Below, piece after piece: positions 19,002 through 27,587 of a DNA stretch of 64,000 bases. How positions within the stretch are numbered: position 1 is the first letter of the stretch; the number at the start of each line of letters is the position of its first letter. The stretch spans positions 1 through 64,000 of IMG/VR virus record IMGVR_UViG_3300009419_000017; one strand, 5' to 3'. The notes beneath the pieces were generated by a model that saw only the letters and a program-made list of their open reading frames with translations, did not search any database and was not told where the DNA came from. A program made the position numbers and the translations under genes. This stretch comes from a virus.

Positions 19002-20419
19002 CTAACTATTTCCGTTCCGTAGGTTTGTTCCCAGTCAATTATATCATTCTCATCATTAAGCAACGGCTGGCCCTTTATATTAAGACTAGTATTCAAAAGC
19101 AAAGGCACCCCAGTTTTTTCATAAAACATCTTCAGCAGGTCATAGAGTCCTGGATGCTGAGACCTATTAACCGTCTGTACCCTGGAAGTGCCGTCCACAT
19201 GGACAACAGAAGGAATTAGTTCTGGCTTCAAGCATTTAGGAGTGTATTGCATATAAGGGCTTGTATAGTCCATGTCAAACCATTCTGAGGCATACTCCTC
19301 CATTATGACTGGAGCAAAGGGCCTAAATAGCTCACGTTGTTTTATTAAGTTAACTCTATCTTTTATGTTAGGATCTCTTGGATCTGCCAAGATACTCCTG
19401 TTCCCTAATGCCCTTGGCCCAAACTCTGCCCTGCCAGTAGCCACGGCAGCGACCCCATCTTTCATAATACGATCAAAAATCTTTTGAATGGGATATTCTC
19501 CACCAAGGTCATACCCCAGATACGGACCTTCCCACTTTATGTGCTTATTCAGAACCGCTAGAGCTGACCCTAAAGAGGATCCAGCATCTCCTGGGTTTGG
19601 CATAATCCAGATATCGTCAAAAATTTTCCAAAGAATAGTATTTGCAGATGCGTTTAGTGCACAGCCACCCATAAAGACAAGGTTATTATAATCTGGCAGA
19701 AGTCTTGACCTAACGTCGTGCATAAAGTCAGTTAGCCTTAGCTCATACACTAGCTGAACTGCAGCAGCTATGTCAAATTTTGCTTGCTCGTCAATCTCTT
19801 CTTCCCAGTCGTGGATTCCTTTGTGGTAATTGTACTTCTGCTGTTTAGTGTTTGGGAAATACTGTAAAACTTTTTTATAGTATCTGTTTGGATCTCCGTA
19901 TCCAGCCATGCCCATTAAAATATATTCGTGCTCATTTGGCTTTAATCCGATCAAGTCTGTGAAAGCAGTATAGAATAATCCAAAGCTAAGTGGGTACTTA
20001 ATCTCTTTAATTAGTTTTATATTTTCCCCATCACCCGCCCAGACGGTAGAGGTCGAAAACTCTCCGATTGCATCTAGAACTACTATCGCTGCTTTGTCAA
20101 ATGAACTTGTATAATAGCCAGCACAGGCATGTGAGTAGTGATGCTTAAATGCTTTGTCGTGTCTATGCCTTGGCTTCCATTCAGCCTTGCCACCTCGTAG
20201 CAGTAGCCTCAGCTGCTTTAGCCTTGGCTTTTCGTAATAAGCTATGGCATCTGGATCTCCAAACTTCAGACCATCATCCCAGAGAGCCTTGTTTGTATAC
20301 CAGTCATTTTTTTCTTTGCTATATCTTTCAGCATGACCCGCAAACAAAATTGTGTTGCTGTCAATAACGGCAAGGGCCGCATCGTGAGATGTTTCATTAA
20401 ATCCAAAAATTCTCAACAT
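18998..20419 (-). CDS. NodU/CmcH-type O-carbamoyltransferase
   Basis: 473 residues. N-terminal Kae1/HSP70-like domain begins FGFNETSHDAALAVI (7-21) and contains HHYSHACAGYY (about 92-103) with metal-binding His; MGGCALN and NPGDAGSSLGSAL follow. The C-terminal YrdC-like part carries GRAEFGPRALGNRSI and LLLNTSLNIKGQPL. It transfers a carbamoyl group from carbamoyl phosphate through carbamoyl-AMP to a hydroxyl. Relatives decorate Nod factors, antibiotics, glycans and, in some phages, hypermodified bases. Its stop and start overlap oxygenase genes on both sides, so one operon. Confidence 0.9.
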   Translation of the reverse strand: MLRIFGFNETSHDAALAVIDSNTILFAGHAERYSKEKNDWYTNKALWDDGLKFGDPDAIAYYEKPRLKQLRLLLRGGKAEWKPRHRHDKAFKHHYSHACAGYYTSSFDKAAIVVLDAIGEFSTSTVWAGDGENIKLIKEIKYPLSFGLFYTAFTDLIGLKPNEHEYILMGMAGYGDPNRYYKKVLQYFPNTKQQKYNYHKGIHDWEEEIDEQAKFDIAAAVQLVYELRLTDFMHDVRSRLLPDYNNLVFMGGCALNASANTILWKIFDDIWIMPNPGDAGSSLGSALAVLNKHIKWEGPYLGYDLGGEYPIQKIFDRIMKDGVAAVATGRAEFGPRALGNRSILADPRDPNIKDRVNLIKQRELFRPFAPVIMEEYASEWFDMDYTSPYMQYTPKCLKPELIPSVVHVDGTSRVQTVNRSQHPGLYDLLKMFYEKTGVPLLLNTSLNIKGQPLLNDENDIIDWEQTYGTEIVR

Positions 20420-21021
20420 TACTCCTTAGAGTATGGGTGCTGTTGTGCTGGCCAAATGCTTCTATCTACTTCTGGATGAAATTCTGGATCTAGATACTTA
20501 GGAATGCTTGTGTGCATATACAAGGCCGTGTGCCTTGCCCCAGATGTAACTGTTGTAATTCCATGGATATATTCTGATCCTGCGCTTGGGAAAAATACAG
20601 CAGAGTATTTCCTTGGCTTATATTCAAAATCTTGGTTTGGGAAATATATAAGACCGCCTTCATAATCACTAGGATCATTTAGATAAATTATCGTACTCCA
20701 CTCAATAAATGGCTCTGGATCTTGGGCATCCATATGCAGGTCTCCCTTTGTTCCTGGGTTCCACCATGAACCAAAAGCCTTAAACACATAAATTGGATTT
20801 ACAAATCCATTCTTTTCTTTATGAACATCATTTGATTTATGACCATACTTAATCAATATGTCCATAACACGCTTATTGTATGGAAATGCTGTGCCACCAT
20901 ATCGCTCAGAGTAGTATTCTGGATATGGGTTTCTTTCAGAAGGATTCTTTTGCTCATCAATTAGAGTCTGTGCGTCCTCTGGTGTAATAAAGTTGTCAAT
21001 GATAGTAATTCTGTGTGTCAT
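20419..21021 (-). CDS. 2OG-Fe(II) oxygenase, P4H-like
   Basis: 200 residues. Ligands H96-x-D98 (LHMD), H153 (YIHGI), R163 (SGAR). IIYLNDPSDYEGGLIYFP and KPRKYSAVFFPS are the conserved strands. Shares its last base with the carbamoyltransferase start. Good AAGGAG-like SD (AAGGAGAACC) before ATG 21021. It belongs to the operon 21843 to 18357 together with a glycosyltransferase, the carbamoyltransferase and a second oxygenase. Confidence 0.88.
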   Translation of the reverse strand: MTHRITIIDNFITPEDAQTLIDEQKNPSERNPYPEYYSERYGGTAFPYNKRVMDILIKYGHKSNDVHKEKNGFVNPIYVFKAFGSWWNPGTKGDLHMDAQDPEPFIEWSTIIYLNDPSDYEGGLIYFPNQDFEYKPRKYSAVFFPSAGSEYIHGITTVTSGARHTALYMHTSIPKYLDPEFHPEVDRSIWPAQQHPYSKE

Positions 21022-21033
21022 GGTTCTCCTTAT

Positions 21034-21843
21034 TTAGTATATCGACTTTACGTTAGAAATAAATTTCCTGGAATCTATGTCATTTATTTTAAGACTATTT
21101 GGGTTGTATAAAACATCGTCATTTGTATATGGCAAAGGCAGTATTGGACACTTATCTAGTCCCACATACCTCCAAAAACTATCAGATATTGTATCTATAA
21201 CTTTACCATACTTATGCTCTATAGAAAATGTTTTATACTTAGTCTCTAGGGTTCTTTGCTCAAGGTCTGATCCCAAAGAACTTGGGGCATTATAAACATG
21301 GTAGCCTTTCTCAAAGCAACTAAAAGATAGCAACTCATCTTCCCCAAGATACTTTACTTTTATAGGATAGGTAACTGGCTTTAAGGTCTTTGTTTTTGAA
21401 AAAATTAAATTCTTACTTATAATGCTGCTTTGAACAAAACTATCTGACTCTTCGGATTCCGCAATTATTGTAAACAGGTCCCTGTTTTTAAAGTGCTGCT
21501 TGCCTATGCCAGAAACAATAGTTTTATTATCTTTAATAAAATCTATTAAGATGTTGTCCCAACCATCTTTAACCATAATGTCATCTGATAATACTAAAAA
21601 GTATTCCGAAGAGCTCTCGTGAATTGTTTTCGACTTATACTCGCAAGGGCTATTTAGGTAATCCCAAAAAATATGGTTATATGATATTTGTGGGCTATCG
21701 AACATTTCTTTTCTGTCTAAAGGGTGTTGGTCATAAACGTGTATATAAATGTCATTACTGGTTGACGAAATAAGATTGTCAACAACTTCCTTTAGGAATT
21801 TATTTTTGTATGAATAGATAACGGCATCAATCGTTGTCGTCAT
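21034..21843 (-). CDS. GT60/GT2-like glycosyltransferase
   Basis: 269 residues. GT-A type: strand AVIYSYKNKFLKEVV, then CEYKSKTIHESSSEYFLVLSDD with D87-D88 and KDGWDN (93-97). This is the arrangement of GT60-like GlcNAc-transferases, where an aspartate/His site is followed by GWD. Overlaps the upstream 21827-22594 gene by 17 nt. Probable sugar transferase of the modification operon; acceptor unknown. Confidence 0.65.
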   Translation of the reverse strand: MTTTIDAVIYSYKNKFLKEVVDNLISSTSNDIYIHVYDQHPLDRKEMFDSPQISYNHIFWDYLNSPCEYKSKTIHESSSEYFLVLSDDIMVKDGWDNILIDFIKDNKTIVSGIGKQHFKNRDLFTIIAESEESDSFVQSSIISKNLIFSKTKTLKPVTYPIKVKYLGEDELLSFSCFEKGYHVYNAPSSLGSDLEQRTLETKYKTFSIEHKYGKVIDTISDSFWRYVGLDKCPILPLPYTNDDVLYNPNSLKINDIDSRKFISNVKSIY

Positions 21844-22594
21844 GGCTTACCTCTGGTGACTTTTTATTAAATATACCAAAATTCTTTTTTCTCCAGGCAA
21901 ATTTTTTATAATATCCATAAAGCATAGATCGCCTATTTTCAGCCATGAGCTCATGCTTATCTAGCTCTTCGTCTGTATCTATAACCTTTGACTCCCAGTC
22001 TTCTCTTTTGAATGGGATTATTTGAAATATTGGCGTGCCTTTGGGAATCACCCCTCTAAAATTTCTCTTTAGAAAAAATGCAGTAAAGACTGGAAGACCC
22101 CAAATGTCGGACTCCACAATTCCAGACAGGGTATAAAACGGAAGGTCGTGCCTATTCATCGGTTGTGTAACCAGTACAGAGTAGCCTGGTGGGGTTTCGT
22201 AATACCAATTCATCCTCCAGCCATAGTGAATTGGGTGGCAGTTATCTGGAACTGGAACCTCTATCGTTGGCCTAGTGTCTACAATCATGACGTCACCTTT
22301 CCAGGACAAAACTGGAACTCCGTTTTCATCCAAGTCTACATAAAGGTCATCCTCTAAAACATACTGGTATCCAGCTGTTAGCGCATCAAAGAAGGGCATA
22401 CACATTTTTGTAGCCACCTGTGCTCCATCGGTTCCTAGAGAGTTTTGGGGGCTTAGCGTCTTGTCGCTATTAGATTTTTCAAACTTTGCCAAGCTTCTAT
22501 ACCATTCTGGGACATGCCTTGTCGCTGGCTGTGGAGCAGTTAGCCTGTCTCCAGGCATTCTAAAAGATGGAATAAAATTAATTATGTTTGACAC
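21827..22594 (-). CDS. conserved phage protein (DUF6065-like), copy A
   Basis: 255 residues of a family I associate tentatively with DUF6065. The opening PQPATRHVPEWYRSL, then MCMPFFDALTAGYQ, YSVLVTQPMNRHD, GTPIFQIIPFKREDWES. The same blocks occur in the broken neighbour (22594-23316), so the two genes are tandem duplicates. No catalytic motif known to me; the His/Trp/Pro-rich strands suggest a cupin-like beta barrel. It sits directly upstream of the glycosyltransferase and oxygenase genes. Confidence 0.65.
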   Translation of the reverse strand: MSNIINFIPSFRMPGDRLTAPQPATRHVPEWYRSLAKFEKSNSDKTLSPQNSLGTDGAQVATKMCMPFFDALTAGYQYVLEDDLYVDLDENGVPVLSWKGDVMIVDTRPTIEVPVPDNCHPIHYGWRMNWYYETPPGYSVLVTQPMNRHDLPFYTLSGIVESDIWGLPVFTAFFLKRNFRGVIPKGTPIFQIIPFKREDWESKVIDTDEELDKHELMAENRRSMLYGYYKKFAWRKKNFGIFNKKSPEVSHDDND

Positions 22595-23019
22595 TAATTA
22601 TATTCTTTCTTTGATCTAAAGATAAGCTTATAGCCATTTGCGAACATGCTACGTAGCTTAAGTCTCTGGTTTAATAAAGTTTTCTTTGAGTCTTCTGCTT
22701 CTGTAATCTCCGACTCCCAGTCATCTCTCTTGATTGGAATGACTTGTACTAATGGAGTGCCACGCTTAATTATACCCTTAAACCCCTTTTCTACAATAAA
22801 GGATAGGTGGCCTTCTGTAATAAACTTGTCGGAGTCAACTAAAGCTGGTATTGCAGTTAGTGGGTAGGTGTCTCTGTGAACTGGATTTAAGAATAGTGTG
22901 CTATATCCAGGATCTGTTTTCATATACCAGAACGGCATTATTCTGAACAATGTTTCATGTTGACGACTTTTATCTATTGGGTATTCGTCATATTGTTGTT
23001 TTTCATGGGAAGAAAACAT
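22594..23019 (-). pseudogene. DUF6065-like copy B, C-terminal part
   Basis: This 141-codon ORF is the C-terminal part of the interrupted paralog of the 21827-22594 gene (YSTLFLNPVHRD, GTPLVQVIPIKRDDWES). It is in the same frame as 23068-23316 and is separated from it only by one TAA codon (23068-23070) and 16 sense codons. An internal ATG at 23019 could restart translation, but no convincing SD is present. Probably part of a gene killed or controlled by a nonsense codon. Confidence 0.7.
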
Positions 23020-23067
23020 GTCTGCCTGGAATTGCTTAATTGCAATTGGTATAGACCAAGTTAGCTT

Positions 23068-23316
23068 TTATGGATTTGTAGAATCTAGGTAGACGTCGCA
23101 TGGCATAGTTATCATATAGCCAGCAGTCATTATGTCAAAAACTGGCATGCACCTTTTAACAGTTGAGGTAGAGTATCCCTTTGGAAGTGTTTCGGCATCA
23201 TTAACTGTGCCCTTTTGCTTTCTATACCACTCTGGCACAAACTTTGATGCTGGCTGAGGCGGATCTGTATAGGCAGAAGTGCTCTCGCTATGTTGATAAA
23301 ACTTAATCTTTGGCAT
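23068..23316 (-). CDS. DUF6065-like copy B, N-terminal part (nonsense codon)
   Basis: 82 codons that match the N-terminus of the 21827 protein (PQPASKFVPEWYRKQ, KRCMPVFDIMTAGYM). The frame ends at an in-frame TAA (23068-23070), after which homology resumes without a frameshift. The complete reading frame is 22594-23316 (about 240 codons), close in length to the intact paralog. The ATG at 23316 overlaps the end of the upstream gene by 14 nt. Confidence 0.7.
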   Translation of the reverse strand: MPKIKFYQHSESTSAYTDPPQPASKFVPEWYRKQKGTVNDAETLPKGYSTSTVKRCMPVFDIMTAGYMITMPCDVYLDSTNP

Positions 23317-23974
23317 AAAATTCCTTAATCCCTAAGTCTATTATAGCATTCCTGGAAATTACCATATCGTAAACTGGAGACAGCCTTTTGACCTTTCCAA
23401 ACTCAGAGTCTGCCATATGGCTGCCTTCTTTTTTAAATCTAAATGGTATCATGAATGGCTCAAGGTATCTTGTTTCTTCAGGAATTTTAATGCAATTCCT
23501 TGTGGTTTCAAATACTTTAAATGCAGACTCTTCTTCTGGAACTACAAATCTAACTTCACAGGCTGAATCAATTATCCAAGGAGTATACGCTACAAACATA
23601 TCGTCAAAACACTCGGGGTCCAGGTCTGCAACATAAGATGATTTGTAGAATTGTCGCAACCAAGGTCTATCTAGAAACTTTCTTTCTTTTTTATTCACTA
23701 GAATAAAAACTTCTGCATGGCTGTATTGCCTTAGTCTAATAAAATTATCATCGATGCTGATTAGTTTTGGTGCTGGATAGAGAGCTTCTGCGTATTTGTT
23801 AATTGGCTTTATAACACTGCTTTTATATTTTTCTGATGATGCAATTTTTTGAAAATTTAACCACTTCTCTGGAACTCTAGATTTAAAAGAAATTTCTACA
23901 AAGTTTGGATCATAGCTTGATTTCCATATGCCAAAGTCATAGTCCGTGTTAGTGAGTATATCTGGCTTATCCAC
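23303..23974 (-). CDS. hypothetical protein of modification operon
   Basis: About 223 residues from GTG 23974, which has GCAGGAAACC just upstream; the in-frame TTG at 23986 is less likely. Segments PEKWLNFQ near the N-terminus and KRLSPVYDMV near the C-terminus echo the PEWYR and CMPVFDxxT blocks of the two DUF6065-like neighbours, so it may be a distant third relative. Function unknown. Confidence 0.6.
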   Translation of the reverse strand: MDKPDILTNTDYDFGIWKSSYDPNFVEISFKSRVPEKWLNFQKIASSEKYKSSVIKPINKYAEALYPAPKLISIDDNFIRLRQYSHAEVFILVNKKERKFLDRPWLRQFYKSSYVADLDPECFDDMFVAYTPWIIDSACEVRFVVPEEESAFKVFETTRNCIKIPEETRYLEPFMIPFRFKKEGSHMADSEFGKVKRLSPVYDMVISRNAIIDLGIKEFYAKD

Positions 23975-24149
23975 GGTTTCCTGCAATCAAGATAGAAATA
24001 AAGTCTGACTGATGTATAGTCATGTCTGAGACTTTACTAATAATTTTTGACACACTGCCCCTAGCTATCGTTTGATTTGCCATGCTAACATTTATACCAA
24101 TTCCAATTTGACAATACTTGCCAAAAACAGTTTCGATATCTTTTAAAAT
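23967..24149 (-). pseudogene. RsmI-like methyltransferase, C-terminal part
   Basis: 60 sense codons in the same frame directly after the internal TAA (24150-24152) of the RsmI-like gene. The sequence (QIGIGINVSMANQTIARGSVSKI, ending ILIAGNRG) fits the C-terminal sheet of tetrapyrrole-methylase-fold enzymes, which end in a G-x-x-x-hydrophobic-x-G strand. It has no start codon or SD of its own near the stop. It ends at TAA 23967-23969, overlapping the next gene. Confidence 0.65.
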
Positions 24150-24680
24150 TTACAAAACTTTAGAGTTATGATCTCTTCTATTTTTAACTAAAAACAAGTA
24201 TGGCATTCTGCTTTCTTTAATCCAGACGAGCCTCTCTATCCGAATGTCTGAAGACTCTCCTGGAACATCGTCTTCGAATATAAATGATTTTCCACCTATC
24301 CCAAGTATAGCAGGCAGGGCTGAAATAATCGATGGGCCTGGAATCACTTCTACTGGCAAGCCCTCCTCATGAGCAATAACAATTATTTTGCCGCCTGGGT
24401 CTGCTATGCTAGCCATCCCATCATCTGGACATATCAAAACATCTTTATTGTTTTTGAGTGCCTCAACAACTTTTGAAATTATTGGCTCTTCAAGCGCTTC
24501 ATCCATTGGGACATAGTACTCAATAACAGATCCACACGGAACAACTGACAAATCTTTACAAAGATTATCAAACATAGATTTATTTTCGACCAAGACAATG
24601 TCTGAGTCTTTGATTGCAGATATCATTCTGCTACCAATATCTAGCCTATTGCCAATGTCTACTCCGCCAACAATTAACAT
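24150..24680 (-). CDS. RsmI-like tetrapyrrole methylase-fold methyltransferase (nonsense codon)
   Basis: 176 codons, continuing after one TAA for 60 more in frame. The fold's hallmarks are present: MLIVGGVDIGNRLDIGSRM opening (family: G-x-PIGN), CPDDGMASIADPGGKII (family: SDAGTPxISDPG) and VIPGPSIISALPAILGIGG (family: PGPSAxxxALxxSGL). RsmI methylates the 2'-OH of C1402 in 16S rRNA. It lies 15 nt after tRNA-Thr with a GAAAGG SD, so it would be made from the tRNA transcript; tRNA or rRNA is the plausible substrate. Unclear whether functional, because the end of the domain is lost. Confidence 0.75.
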   Translation of the reverse strand: MLIVGGVDIGNRLDIGSRMISAIKDSDIVLVENKSMFDNLCKDLSVVPCGSVIEYYVPMDEALEEPIISKVVEALKNNKDVLICPDDGMASIADPGGKIIVIAHEEGLPVEVIPGPSIISALPAILGIGGKSFIFEDDVPGESSDIRIERLVWIKESRMPYLFLVKNRRDHNSKVL

Positions 24681-24695
24681 ATATGCCTTTCTTCG

Positions 24696-24767
24696 AGCCT
24701 CCTGTCAGGATTGAACTGACGACCTACGCATTACAAGTGCGTTGCTCTACCACTGAGCTAAAGAGGC
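24696..24767 (-). tRNA. tRNA-Thr (TGT)
   Basis: 72 nt; acceptor GCCTCTT/AGGAGGC, anticodon loop CTTGTAA on stem ACGCA/TGCGT, T arm GTCAG-TTCAATC-CTGAC. No encoded CCA. Last of five in the leftward tRNA array. Confidence 0.92.
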
Positions 24768-24768
24768 G

Positions 24769-24841
24769 TACTCCCAACGGGATTTGAACCCGTGCTACCG
24801 CCGTGAAAGGGCGACGTCCTAGGCCACTAGACGATGAGAGC
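24769..24841 (-). tRNA. tRNA-Glu (TTC)
   Basis: 73 nt; acceptor GCTCTCA/TGGGAGT with a terminal G-U pair, anticodon loop CTTTCAC on stem TCGCC/GGCGG, T arm CGGG-TTCAAAT-CCCG. It is one nt from tRNA-Thr. Confidence 0.9.
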
Positions 24842-24918
24842 CAGTGCTAGTTTTCTCCTAAAGACGAAACTTTAAGCGGAGTCATTCCACCACGAAAAAC
24901 TAGCAAACGCAGTGGCAG
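24842..24918 (-). other. long-hairpin spacer between tRNA-Asp and tRNA-Glu
   Basis: On the minus strand GCTAGTTTT pairs with AAAACTAGC (9 bp, outer ends 24903 and 24846). Inside are nested CTCC/GGAG and TAAAG/CTTTA helices with an asymmetric 13-14 nt bulge on the 5' side. No tRNA cloverleaf can be drawn, because a T arm with GTTCRA is missing. Probably a structured linker or processing element. Confidence 0.5.
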
Positions 24919-24992
24919 CGACCCTGACCAGACTTGAACTGGCGACCTCCTCCGTGACAGGGAGGCGCTCTAACCAACTGAGCTACAGGGCC
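24919..24992 (-). tRNA. tRNA-Asp (GTC)
   Basis: 74 nt; acceptor GGCCCTG/CAGGGTC, D arm AGCTCAGTTGGTTAGAGC, anticodon loop CTGTCAC on CCTCC/GGAGG, T arm GCCAG-TTCAAGT-CTGGT. Discriminator G as expected for Asp. Confidence 0.93.
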
Positions 24993-25046
24993 TGGTGTCC
25001 ACTTTTATCCCTTCTCTCATTGGGAGTGGTGTAGACTAAACCATTA
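24993..25046 (-). repeat. tRNA spacer hairpin, copy 1
   Basis: 54 nt between tRNA-Gly and tRNA-Asp, clearly homologous to the 25119-25171 spacer. Shared blocks are ATGGT, ACCACTCCC, AGGGATAAAA and TGGACA. Minus-strand outer helix GTCTAC/GTGGAC (one G-U), inner TCCC/GGGA. Confidence 0.7.
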
Positions 25047-25118
25047 GAGCGAATGGAGAGAATCGAACTCTCACCGTCAGTTTGGAAGACTGAGGCACTA
25101 CCACTATGCAACATTCGC
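25047..25118 (-). tRNA. tRNA-Gly (TCC)
   Basis: 72 nt; acceptor GCGAATG/CATTCGC, anticodon loop CTTCCAA on TCAGT/ACTGA, T arm GAGAG-TTCGATT-CTCTC. Discriminator U. Confidence 0.93.
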
Positions 25119-25171
25119 TATGTCCATTTTTATCCCTATACCCGTGGGAGTGGTATGGACCACACCATAAG
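25119..25171 (-). repeat. tRNA spacer hairpin, copy 2
   Basis: 53 nt between tRNA-Asn and tRNA-Gly. Minus-strand outer helix GTCCAT/ATGGAC, inner TCCC/GGGA. The innermost outer-helix pair is T-A here and C-G in copy 1, a compensatory change. Confidence 0.7.
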
Positions 25172-25243
25172 CTCTCCCTCGTGGACTCGAACCACGAACC
25201 TTAGAGTTAACAGCTCTCTGCTCTGCCATTGAGCTAAGGGAGA
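25172..25243 (-). tRNA. tRNA-Asn (GTT)
   Basis: 72 nt; acceptor TCTCCCT/AGGGAGA, anticodon loop CTGTTAA, T arm CGTGG-TTCGAGT-CCACG, discriminator G. First of the array, 8 nt after the subtilase ORF. Confidence 0.92.
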
Positions 25244-25251
25244 AAACCTAT

Positions 25252-25578
25252 TTAGTTATTTTTGACTGCAGCAGTAACGGTTGCTACAGATGTTGTAAAG
25301 CCAACCATAAACGGATTAGCATCTACTAGGTTGATTGGAAAGGAGTCGTGCAACCCTTGGACCGCTGTCCTGGTAGACTTTAAAGTTTTGCTCGTATATC
25401 CATTGCCAGAAAGAACCACGTCTGATCTCTGTGTGCTACCAATAAACTGAGTAGAGCCAACTGCAATAGAGTCTGAGATACAGGCTGGATAATCAATATT
25501 GTTTCCGCTTCCATAGTTTCCAGAAGAAGCATAGAACTTAACATTAGATGTCTTTAGAGCCGTAATAGCCTTAACCAC
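25252..25578 (-). pseudogene. subtilase, C-terminal part
   Basis: C-terminal part of the subtilisin-like gene, in the same frame as 25642-26037 and separated from it by one TAA (25642-25644) and 21 sense codons. It carries the oxyanion Asn segment YASSGNYGSG and the catalytic Ser block FTTSVATVTAAV (family GTSMAAP). A GTG at 25578 is the only nearby alternative start, without an SD, so a separate protein is unlikely. Confidence 0.7.
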
Positions 25579-25641
25579 ATTATCGTGAGTTGTTTTAATA
25601 GCTACCCCTGGCGATGCTGGAGAACATTTTGCACCATTACC

Positions 25642-26037
25642 TTAGTTGTAGGAAAATGATACTGCCTTAATGTTATACTTAGCCGAATTAGTAATTACCC
25701 AATTAAGAGCATTAGCCAGCTGAATTCCAGTAATAACTCCAGTCTTAGTTGTGCCTGCTTCAATTAAAACTAGTGGGACGTCTGGACCAGCAGATCTAGC
25801 AATGTCTGCCATAACTGTTCCATGATTAAATGCCTTAAACTCTGAAGCATTTCTTGGAGTTGCGGCTGAGCTACACACTGAAGGTGCTGCCAAGCAAACC
25901 TCTGTTACTTCTCCACCGATTAGATTGGATTCAAAATTTACATCGATAATTGCAACTGCTCCGTTAGCATTTGCCTGAGCTGGAATAATTCCAACAACCA
26001 CAAGAACTGCAGCAAGAGCGATAATTACTTTTTTCAT
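25642..26037 (-). CDS. secreted subtilase, N-terminal part (nonsense codon)
   Basis: 131 codons. Residues 1-24 are a Sec signal peptide (MKKVIIALAAVLVVVGI..., ending ANA). The catalytic Asp lies in AIIDVNFES and the catalytic His in FNHGTVMADI (family HGTxVA). The frame stops at TAA 25642-25644 in SFSYN, then continues without shift to the Ser and Asn motifs; the uninterrupted protein would be about 261 residues. The triad is therefore split by one nonsense codon. Followed by the tRNA array. Confidence 0.75.
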   Translation of the reverse strand: MKKVIIALAAVLVVVGIIPAQANANGAVAIIDVNFESNLIGGEVTEVCLAAPSVCSSAATPRNASEFKAFNHGTVMADIARSAGPDVPLVLIEAGTTKTGVITGIQLANALNWVITNSAKYNIKAVSFSYN

Positions 26038-26052
26038 ATTATTTATTTCTTT

Positions 26053-26271
26053 CTATTGATTAATTAATTTAATAACTGGTGAACACGGGTCTCCGCCGTC
26101 TTCCCATTCTTTTTCTTCTTCTTCTGTCATGTACGGATCTCCGTCATGAGTGTAGCAGAATGGCTCAGTTACCCAGCCATTACTAATGCCAACCATAAGC
26201 CATTCATCAAAATCAGGCGGTGAGGGCTCATTGTCTACGATGTTATCCATAGAAAAATCCTTTTGAGTCAT
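26053..26271 (-). CDS. small acidic hypothetical protein, consensus leaderless promoter
   Basis: 72 residues starting at ATG 26271; the longer ORF from 26373 reads through the promoter and is rejected. Acidic, with TEEEEKEW and two Cys (FCYTHDGDP, DPCSP). No recognised family. Its promoter has a perfect TTGACA and TATAAT at 17 bp and 6 nt to the ATG. First gene of the transcript leading to the subtilase and tRNAs. Confidence 0.65.
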   Translation of the reverse strand: MTQKDFSMDNIVDNEPSPPDFDEWLMVGISNGWVTEPFCYTHDGDPYMTEEEEKEWEDGGDPCSPVIKLINQ

Positions 26272-26306
26272 ATATACATTATATCCAATTCGAGGAAGCT
26301 TGTCAA
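26272..26306 (-). promoter_or_regulatory. perfect consensus leaderless promoter
   Basis: Minus strand: TTGACA (26301-26306), 17-bp spacer, TATAAT (26278-26283), 6 nt to ATG 26271. The -35 overlaps the stop codon of the upstream methyltransferase gene. It probably drives the 26271 gene, the subtilase and the tRNA array. Confidence 0.85.
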
Positions 26307-27019
26307 CTATTTTTGAGTGACTGGTGGTAGCCTGACCACTTGCATAAATATAAGGCAAGTTTTTCGTCCTCAATAGTAGTTAGGGAGGGATGGTCAATAA
26401 AGTTTTTTAGCAAAAATTCTCGCCATCTTTTACCAACTTTATGTCTATTAGTATTAAGATACTCTTCTAGTAAAAATTCTGAATCATTTTTTGGGAATTC
26501 TTTTTTTAGAAATAAACCCTCAATAGACCATGGCCAGTATGTTTCTGTTTTTATTCTTTTAAAAATTTTAGACATATCCATCAGCTTCCAAGAGTCGGGC
26601 TGTAGTTCATAGTGATCTGGTAAAAAACAATCATATTTTACATCAGTTTCATAGGTTGTGGCATCTCCTGAAATGATTTTAATTTTATGATTTTCTGGAT
26701 TACTTTCTAAAAAAGCTTTTTCTACATCTGAATTTAGCTCAAGAACTGTTACGCTAGAAACATTTTCTTTTTGTGCAAGGGCAATTGGAAGAATCCCAAA
26801 GCCCAAACCAGTTAACAAAACATTTCCGTAAGCTAGATCATATTGGGAATAAAAAGTATCTTTTGGATGAGTAAAGTCTTTATCAGTTTGCATCCAACCT
26901 ATACCATTATGATATAAAAAATATGCCTGCCTTTCAGGCTCAAAAATTATTTCTACTTCTCCATAAACACCTGGAACAATATTTGGCATTGTGGCATCAT
27001 GTATTGTTTTAAGATTCAA
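26303..27019 (-). CDS. class I SAM methyltransferase, spermidine synthase-like
   Basis: 238 residues from TTG 27019 (AAAGGG upstream; the ATG at 26989 lacks an SD). Motif I LLTGLGFGILPIAL (about 70-83), acidic strand end VTVLELNSDVEKAF, ISGDATTYE and YDCFLPDHY match spermidine-synthase/class I methyltransferase Rossmann folds; the usual fourth-motif Asp is followed by HYE. Probably a small-molecule or protein methyltransferase; target unknown. Expressed from the dyad-embedded promoter upstream. Confidence 0.7.
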   Translation of the reverse strand: MNLKTIHDATMPNIVPGVYGEVEIIFEPERQAYFLYHNGIGWMQTDKDFTHPKDTFYSQYDLAYGNVLLTGLGFGILPIALAQKENVSSVTVLELNSDVEKAFLESNPENHKIKIISGDATTYETDVKYDCFLPDHYELQPDSWKLMDMSKIFKRIKTETYWPWSIEGLFLKKEFPKNDSEFLLEEYLNTNRHKVGKRWREFLLKNFIDHPSLTTIEDEKLALYLCKWSGYHQSLKNS

Positions 27020-27069
27020 GAACAGCCCTTTCTAAGGCAGTTAGCTGCAGACTGTACAGAATGACAAAT

Positions 27070-27116
27070 CCCCTCAGCCTAGATATAATTATATACCTAG
27101 GAGAGGGGGTTGTCAA
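27070..27116 (-). promoter_or_regulatory. perfect promoter inside a dyad (operator-like)
   Basis: Minus strand: TTGACA (27111-27116), 17-bp spacer, TATAAT (27088-27093). An inverted repeat CCCCTC-A-(G)CCTAG / CTAGG-A-GAGGGG (27070-27108) is centred on the -10 box. This fits an operator for a dimeric repressor; a hairpin in the leader RNA is the alternative. Confidence 0.7.
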
Positions 27117-27120
27117 ACAA

Positions 27121-27387
27121 TTACTTAGAGTTTTTGTCTACTTTAGAAAAAGCCTGGTTAATTTCTTCTAGGGTTAGCTGGCCATCATCCAAGAATGCTC
27201 TTGCAAGCTTCTCTACTACGCTAGCTACTCCAAGAATACCTGCCATGATTACTGCAGAAATTAGGTCAATTCCTACTACTGCACCAGCACCCAAGACGCT
27301 AAGTCCCGAAGCTGCAAACACAGCTAGAATTCTCCAGAATATGTTCTTGATGGTTGCCCATCCTCCTGTTACTCCTTGTTCTTCCAT
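27121..27387 (-). CDS. small membrane protein, holin-like
   Basis: 88 residues with two hydrophobic segments (about 16-40 and 42-60) rich in Ala/Gly/Val, then an acidic amphipathic tail (DDGQLTLEEINQAFSKVDKNSK). Strong AGGAGG SD 5 nt before ATG 27387. Layout and size fit actinophage holins; it is next to a second small membrane protein, a pairing common for holin/antiholin in actinophages. Confidence 0.6.
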   Translation of the reverse strand: MEEQGVTGGWATIKNIFWRILAVFAASGLSVLGAGAVVGIDLISAVIMAGILGVASVVEKLARAFLDDGQLTLEEINQAFSKVDKNSK

Positions 27388-27401
27388 GTTATCCTCCTAT
27401 T

Positions 27402-27587
27402 TTATTTATCTTCTTTTTCATAACGAAAAATCGGAAATGTTACTACCCATACTAATAAAGTAATTAGTATTAAGTTTCCTGTAAGTTCCTTAGCGGAACC
27501 TTCAAGAACAAGCCAAGCCACAACCATGCCAAGCAATGTCCATGCCTGTTCTACGATGTCCTTAGCCAATGCTGTTAAAAATTTCAT
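27402..27587 (-). CDS. two-TM small membrane protein, holin-like
   Basis: 61 residues: two hydrophobic helices (about 14-31 and 35-52) and charged ends (KFLTALAKD, FRYEKEDK). Lies 14 nt upstream of the 27121 gene. Candidate holin or antiholin partner; a toxic or exclusion peptide is the alternative. Confidence 0.55.
   Translation of the reverse strand: MKFLTALAKDIVEQAWTLLGMVVAWLVLEGSAKELTGNLILITLLVWVVTFPIFRYEKEDK

Follow-up and report, generated by a model that had tools for sequence, protein, structure and literature searches.

Three neighbouring cargo genes of a tailed phage, each interrupted by one in-frame TAA: probably a recent loss of function

The DNA analysed here, called the window, is the stretch of 64,000 nucleotides formed by bases 1-64000 of the 68,646-bp IMG/VR record IMGVR_UViG_3300009419_000017. 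DNA polymerase, terminase and tail genes mark the record as that of a tailed phage, and to judge from its genes the source virus is a tailed, actinophage-like one. Its DNA polymerase is about 57% identical, over the whole protein, to those of the Streptomyces phages BillNye, Circinus and Wakanda (~127 kb), which are the closest named phages by this gene, yet distant from the record. Two close relatives are used for comparison throughout: r1 (IMGVR_UViG_3300027710_000017, 93 kb) and r2 (IMGVR_UViG_3300044634_002252, 90 kb). The overlap of the three records suggests a total genome length of about 115-120 kb; roughly 45-50 kb of the phage would then lie outside the record. The features under discussion, in order of position in the window, are the following.

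19664..27450, unstranded: cargo block diverged from r1, with about 78-97% identity per 250 bp, adjoining near-identical sequence
22594..23316, minus strand: copy B of the DUF6065-like genes, in the PHROG 7084 family; 240 codons, with the break after residue 82, ending in TAG
23068-23070, minus strand: in-frame TAA of copy B; GAA (Glu) in r1 and r2
23967..24680, minus strand: RsmI-like TP_methylase gene (PF00590), 237 codons, broken after residue 176, ending in TAA
24150-24152, minus strand: in-frame TAA of the methylase gene; GAA (Glu) in r1 and r2
24695..25243, minus strand: tRNA cluster Asn-Gly-Asp-Glu-Thr (in transcription order), between the protease and methylase genes, with no UUA anticodon
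24842..24917, minus strand: structured spacer of 76 nt between tRNA-Asp and tRNA-Glu; in r1 and r2 it measures 3 nt
25252..26037, minus strand: gene of a subtilase-like secreted protease, 261 codons, broken after residue 131, ending in TAA
25642-25644, minus strand: in-frame TAA of the protease gene; GCT (Ala) in r1 and r2

Each of the three TAA codons is the sole internal stop of a frame that is otherwise open. A preliminary description of this DNA had placed them at these positions, had held that no frameshift is needed to continue past any of them, and had found that each whole frame ends at a normal stop; all of this is borne out. The frames are open on either side, the proteins of intact relatives align straight across every TAA (94.6% over 240 amino acids for copy B, 88.6% over 237 for the methylase and 76.7% over 258 for the protease), and the alignments of the three frames with relatives contain no frameshift. 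The terminators are TAG for copy B, against TAA in its relatives, and TAA for the two other genes. A comparison with close relatives had also been proposed, and it yields sense codons at the sites with homology continuing past the stops; indeed, every sampled homolog has a sense codon at the three sites, and none has a stop.

The mutational path suggested in the same description, from CAA to TAA, has to be replaced, since the three sites read GAA, GAA and GCT in r1 and r2. For copy B and the methylase, a single G>T change, a transversion, turns GAA into TAA. Of 17 homologous records, 14 have an Ala codon at the protease site, two a Ser codon (TCT) and one a Val codon, and the TAA is at least two changes away from any codon in these records, with a path, for example, via the Ser codon TCA. 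The codon lost in the protease was probably one for Ala or Ser.

What do the three genes encode? Copy B and its neighbour, copy A, are tandem paralogs, about 29% identical, that occupy positions 21827-23316 of the window. The label DUF6065-like, inherited from the preliminary description, is weak for copy B, which has no match to the DUF6065 model PF19541 at E<=10, and copy A reaches 23.7 bits, below the curated cut-off of 26.6; what stands is the kinship of the copies, both of which match PHROG 7084. Relatives of this DUF6065-like protein are present also in tailed viruses of haloarchaea. Against PF00590, whose curated cut-off is 27.8 bits, the r1 methylase scores 55.3 bits and the truncated protein of the window 47.9 bits, and the methylase also matches the solved RsmI structure 5hw4 (E 6.6e-7). 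For the protease, no subtilase model of Pfam matches at E<=10 and the phage collection searched gives no match, and its profile match to the subtilisin-like structure 1q5p is weak, covering only 46 residues (E 0.0034); its predicted catalytic residues D32, H72 and S250 are invariant in 8 homologs. An AlphaFold model of this protein was set aside as too poor (pLDDT 44), and scans of GTDB with the methylase and the protease gave no relatives. At their C-terminus, the proteases of r1 and r2 (L039 5543-6577 and L045) are longer by about 85 residues, an extension that is absent from the window protein and from the other homologs; the short C-terminus was thus rejected as a sign of further decay, the short form being the usual one in the family.

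Judging from the predicted proteins, each truncation should be disabling, because the protease, with its stop after His72 and ahead of Ser250, both predicted to be catalytic, would lose the segment that holds the latter, the methylase would lose its last 61 residues, and copy B two thirds of its length.

The 76-nt spacer of the tRNA cluster, present in this record only, can be drawn as an 11-bp closing stem with two inner hairpins. It was considered as a hidden suppressor tRNA and rejected: none of the three ARAGORN modes (standard, mitochondrial and relaxed) called a tRNA here, Rfam gave no match at E<=10, and a scan for anticodon-arm motifs was negative. Related tRNA arrays hold structured spacers of other sequence. 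Separately, a conserved small RNA of phage inter-tRNA spacers occurs at 24993-25046 and 25118-25170 of the window, on the minus strand, and also in loci L039, L045, L058, L062, L066, L069, L076 and others. Its layout is UAAUGGU, a 6-bp P1, ACCAC, a 4-bp P2 hairpin, UAAAA and the P1 partner, and UGGU is predicted to be able to pair with ACCA, forming a pseudoknot. Across 17 distinct spacers, every one of the six P1 and four P2 pairs is kept, 8 pairs show compensatory changes, and a covariance model retrieves 25 copies in 562 kb, those checked lying between or just after tRNA genes. The copies of the window have no Rfam match at E<=10. This RNA is possibly a processing or protection element, and perhaps an undescribed RNA family.

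The pair of DUF6065-like genes, the methylase gene, the five tRNAs and the protease gene all belong to the cargo block, along with genes that, from reading their sequences, we take to be carbamoyltransferase-like, 2OG-Fe-oxygenase-like and glycosyltransferase-like. The block may extend further left than 19664, where r1 begins. Left of ~27.2 kb, identity to r1 is about 90%; right of ~27.3-27.5 kb, it is about 99.95% overall (range 99.6-100%). The change is an abrupt step, within positions 27200-27450 of the window, that may be a recombination breakpoint or a strain join, and the block would consequently be either an exchanged cargo segment or the product of a join between strains. The cargo island is variable: the methylase is missing from many related loci with the same tRNA neighbourhood, and no protease match lies beside the tRNAs in L051, L055, L059, L069, L076 and L080.

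Counts of changes in the block give an idea of the age of the stops. Synonymous, missense and nonsense changes number 196, 61 and 3 on the branch of the record and 105, 34 and 0 on that of r1; the neutral expectation is about 2.5 missense changes per synonymous change. Downstream of the stops there are 13 missense to 38 synonymous changes, and upstream 32 to 52, so that the ratio is no higher downstream and relaxed selection is not seen there. The downstream parts were thus constrained for most of the branch, and the stops are recent, unless they are read through. A neutral gene gains about 0.13-0.16 stops per synonymous change; a few stops in a short interval would therefore need no special mechanism once selection had lapsed. 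The spectrum of the branch-specific changes is ordinary. It is rich in transitions, with G>T and C>A making up only 26 of 363 changes, and oxidative damage and hypermutation were rejected on these grounds.

To assess how rare such interruptions are, 521 ORFs from 27 records (this record, r1, r2 and 24 further loci) were compared all against all. Among them, these three were judged to be the only true cases of a single stop with homology on either side. The other flagged stops lie, by our judgement, in antisense, overlapping or spurious frames; a TAG in a gene-like frame of r1, for instance, is part of an upstream extension, in a frame overlapping the gene next to it. The probability that three stops fall within 2.6 kb by chance is 0.004 over the whole record, and 0.027 when restricted to the 27 kb in which it is not nearly identical to r1. 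The stops do cluster, but to a moderate degree. About 44% of neutral nonsense changes would be TAA, which gives about 0.09 for three TAA stops.

Are the stops present in the phage at all? Base errors, or the consensus of a strain chimera in the diverged left block, could have put stops into intact genes. For every stop that random errors place in these genes, about 19 missense changes would be expected, along with some frameshifts; no such excess is seen, and there are no frameshifts. In favour of a fault is the identity step with respect to r1 at ~27.2-27.45 kb, of the kind that a two-strain join could give, with all three stops on its diverged side; the gene order across this junction is nevertheless identical in the record, r1 and r2. 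The haplotype with the three stops is found in one record only, with no independent second record: pattern scans of other records for a TAA at the DUF6065-like or protease site, from which near-identical records may be left out, found none. The protease codon, at least two bases from every homolog, and the all-TAA pattern would also fit an artefact. On balance, a fault of the record is rather improbable, though worth keeping in mind, and it may be limited to a few bases, or to a minority-strain consensus, in this record. If the stops are real, the two halves of each gene might be made separately, the second by internal restart, as a 141-aa ORF with an ATG 17 codons downstream of the stop of the DUF6065-like gene could suggest. 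However, uninterrupted relatives have this ATG too, together with the bases that precede it, the methylase has no start nearby, the stop of the protease separates two predicted catalytic residues, and no relative is split. We consider such split genes extremely unlikely.

The remaining alternative is that an amino acid is inserted at these TAA codons, by a suppressor tRNA or by programmed readthrough, so that full-length proteins are made in some hosts. The phage recoding described in PMC12386605 and in the abstract of PMC9523058 concerns TAG and TGA, with no change of TAA; stops that are read would for this reason matter far more than stops that are not. The segments downstream of the stops are still under purifying selection, the same codon is used three times, twice in place of a Glu codon, and both a part of the genome and the host lie outside the data. 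Yet TAA, the commonest terminator, ends 33 of the 68 ORFs of at least 100 amino acids, and it ends the methylase and protease genes themselves; the preliminary description was right to find TAA improbable as a genome-wide sense codon, and we reject it as one. There is no sign of backup stops either: behind TAA, the following stop in frame lies at a median of 7 codons, against 8 for TAG and 7.5 for TGA. The same description had seen no tRNA with a TTA anticodon in the window, and ARAGORN agrees. The wider search that it called for is answered in part, with no UUA-anticodon tRNA in the 68.6-kb record, r1 or r2, but the remaining ~45-50 kb of the genome lie outside the record. The 76-nt spacer is not tRNA-like, the contexts of the three stops have nothing in common, and each site is an ordinary sense codon in every sampled relative. 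Regulated readthrough, offered earlier as one of two explanations, therefore finds no support here, and a reading of TAA as an amino acid is very unlikely. Its narrower form, in which the UAA codons of a few cargo genes are decoded, perhaps as Glu, conditionally by a suppressor of the host or of the unseen part of the genome, the cargo being made in certain hosts only, is most improbable.

It is thus natural to favour recent nonsense inactivation of three dispensable cargo genes of a mosaic phage, caught in one genome, which we regard as probable. Loss of function was also the other explanation of the preliminary description, and the sense codons of the relatives and the constraint downstream of the stops make it the best supported. 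This conclusion draws on the sense codons in all sampled relatives, with frames otherwise intact and free of frameshifts, on the location of the genes in a variable cargo island, on an ordinary mutation spectrum, and on the use of TAA as the terminator of two of the genes and of half of the long ORFs. In such a scenario, the block would have been exchanged by recombination, the three genes would recently have lost their selective value in this lineage, and the stops would then have drifted, or may now segregate in the population. Several points count against it. Three recent losses in adjacent genes are a coincidence unless selection lapsed across the block; copies of the DUF6065-like and protease genes are intact in relatives down to ~30% identity; all three stops are TAA; the one in the protease takes at least two changes, in a codon that is conserved; and a single record shows the haplotype. 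If nonsense inactivation is real, the record is a snapshot of cargo-gene loss in a single lineage, within a group of phages where those genes are otherwise kept, and it also cautions that an isolated in-frame stop in a virus contig is no evidence of recoding.

Two known systems invite comparison. Stop-recoded phages, in which TAG is read as Gln ('code 15') or TGA is recoded, such as the crAss-like and Lak phages, also have in-frame stops inside conserved genes; here, however, the codon is TAA, three genes only are concerned, no suppressor tRNA was found, and TAA continues to serve as the most frequent terminator, two of these genes included. The accessory genes of phages that nonsense mutations have turned into pseudogenes differ from the present case in that here three neighbours are hit at once, all by TAA and in a single record, but they resemble it in having one premature stop per gene, a frame otherwise intact, intact orthologs, and a place in a variable cargo region.
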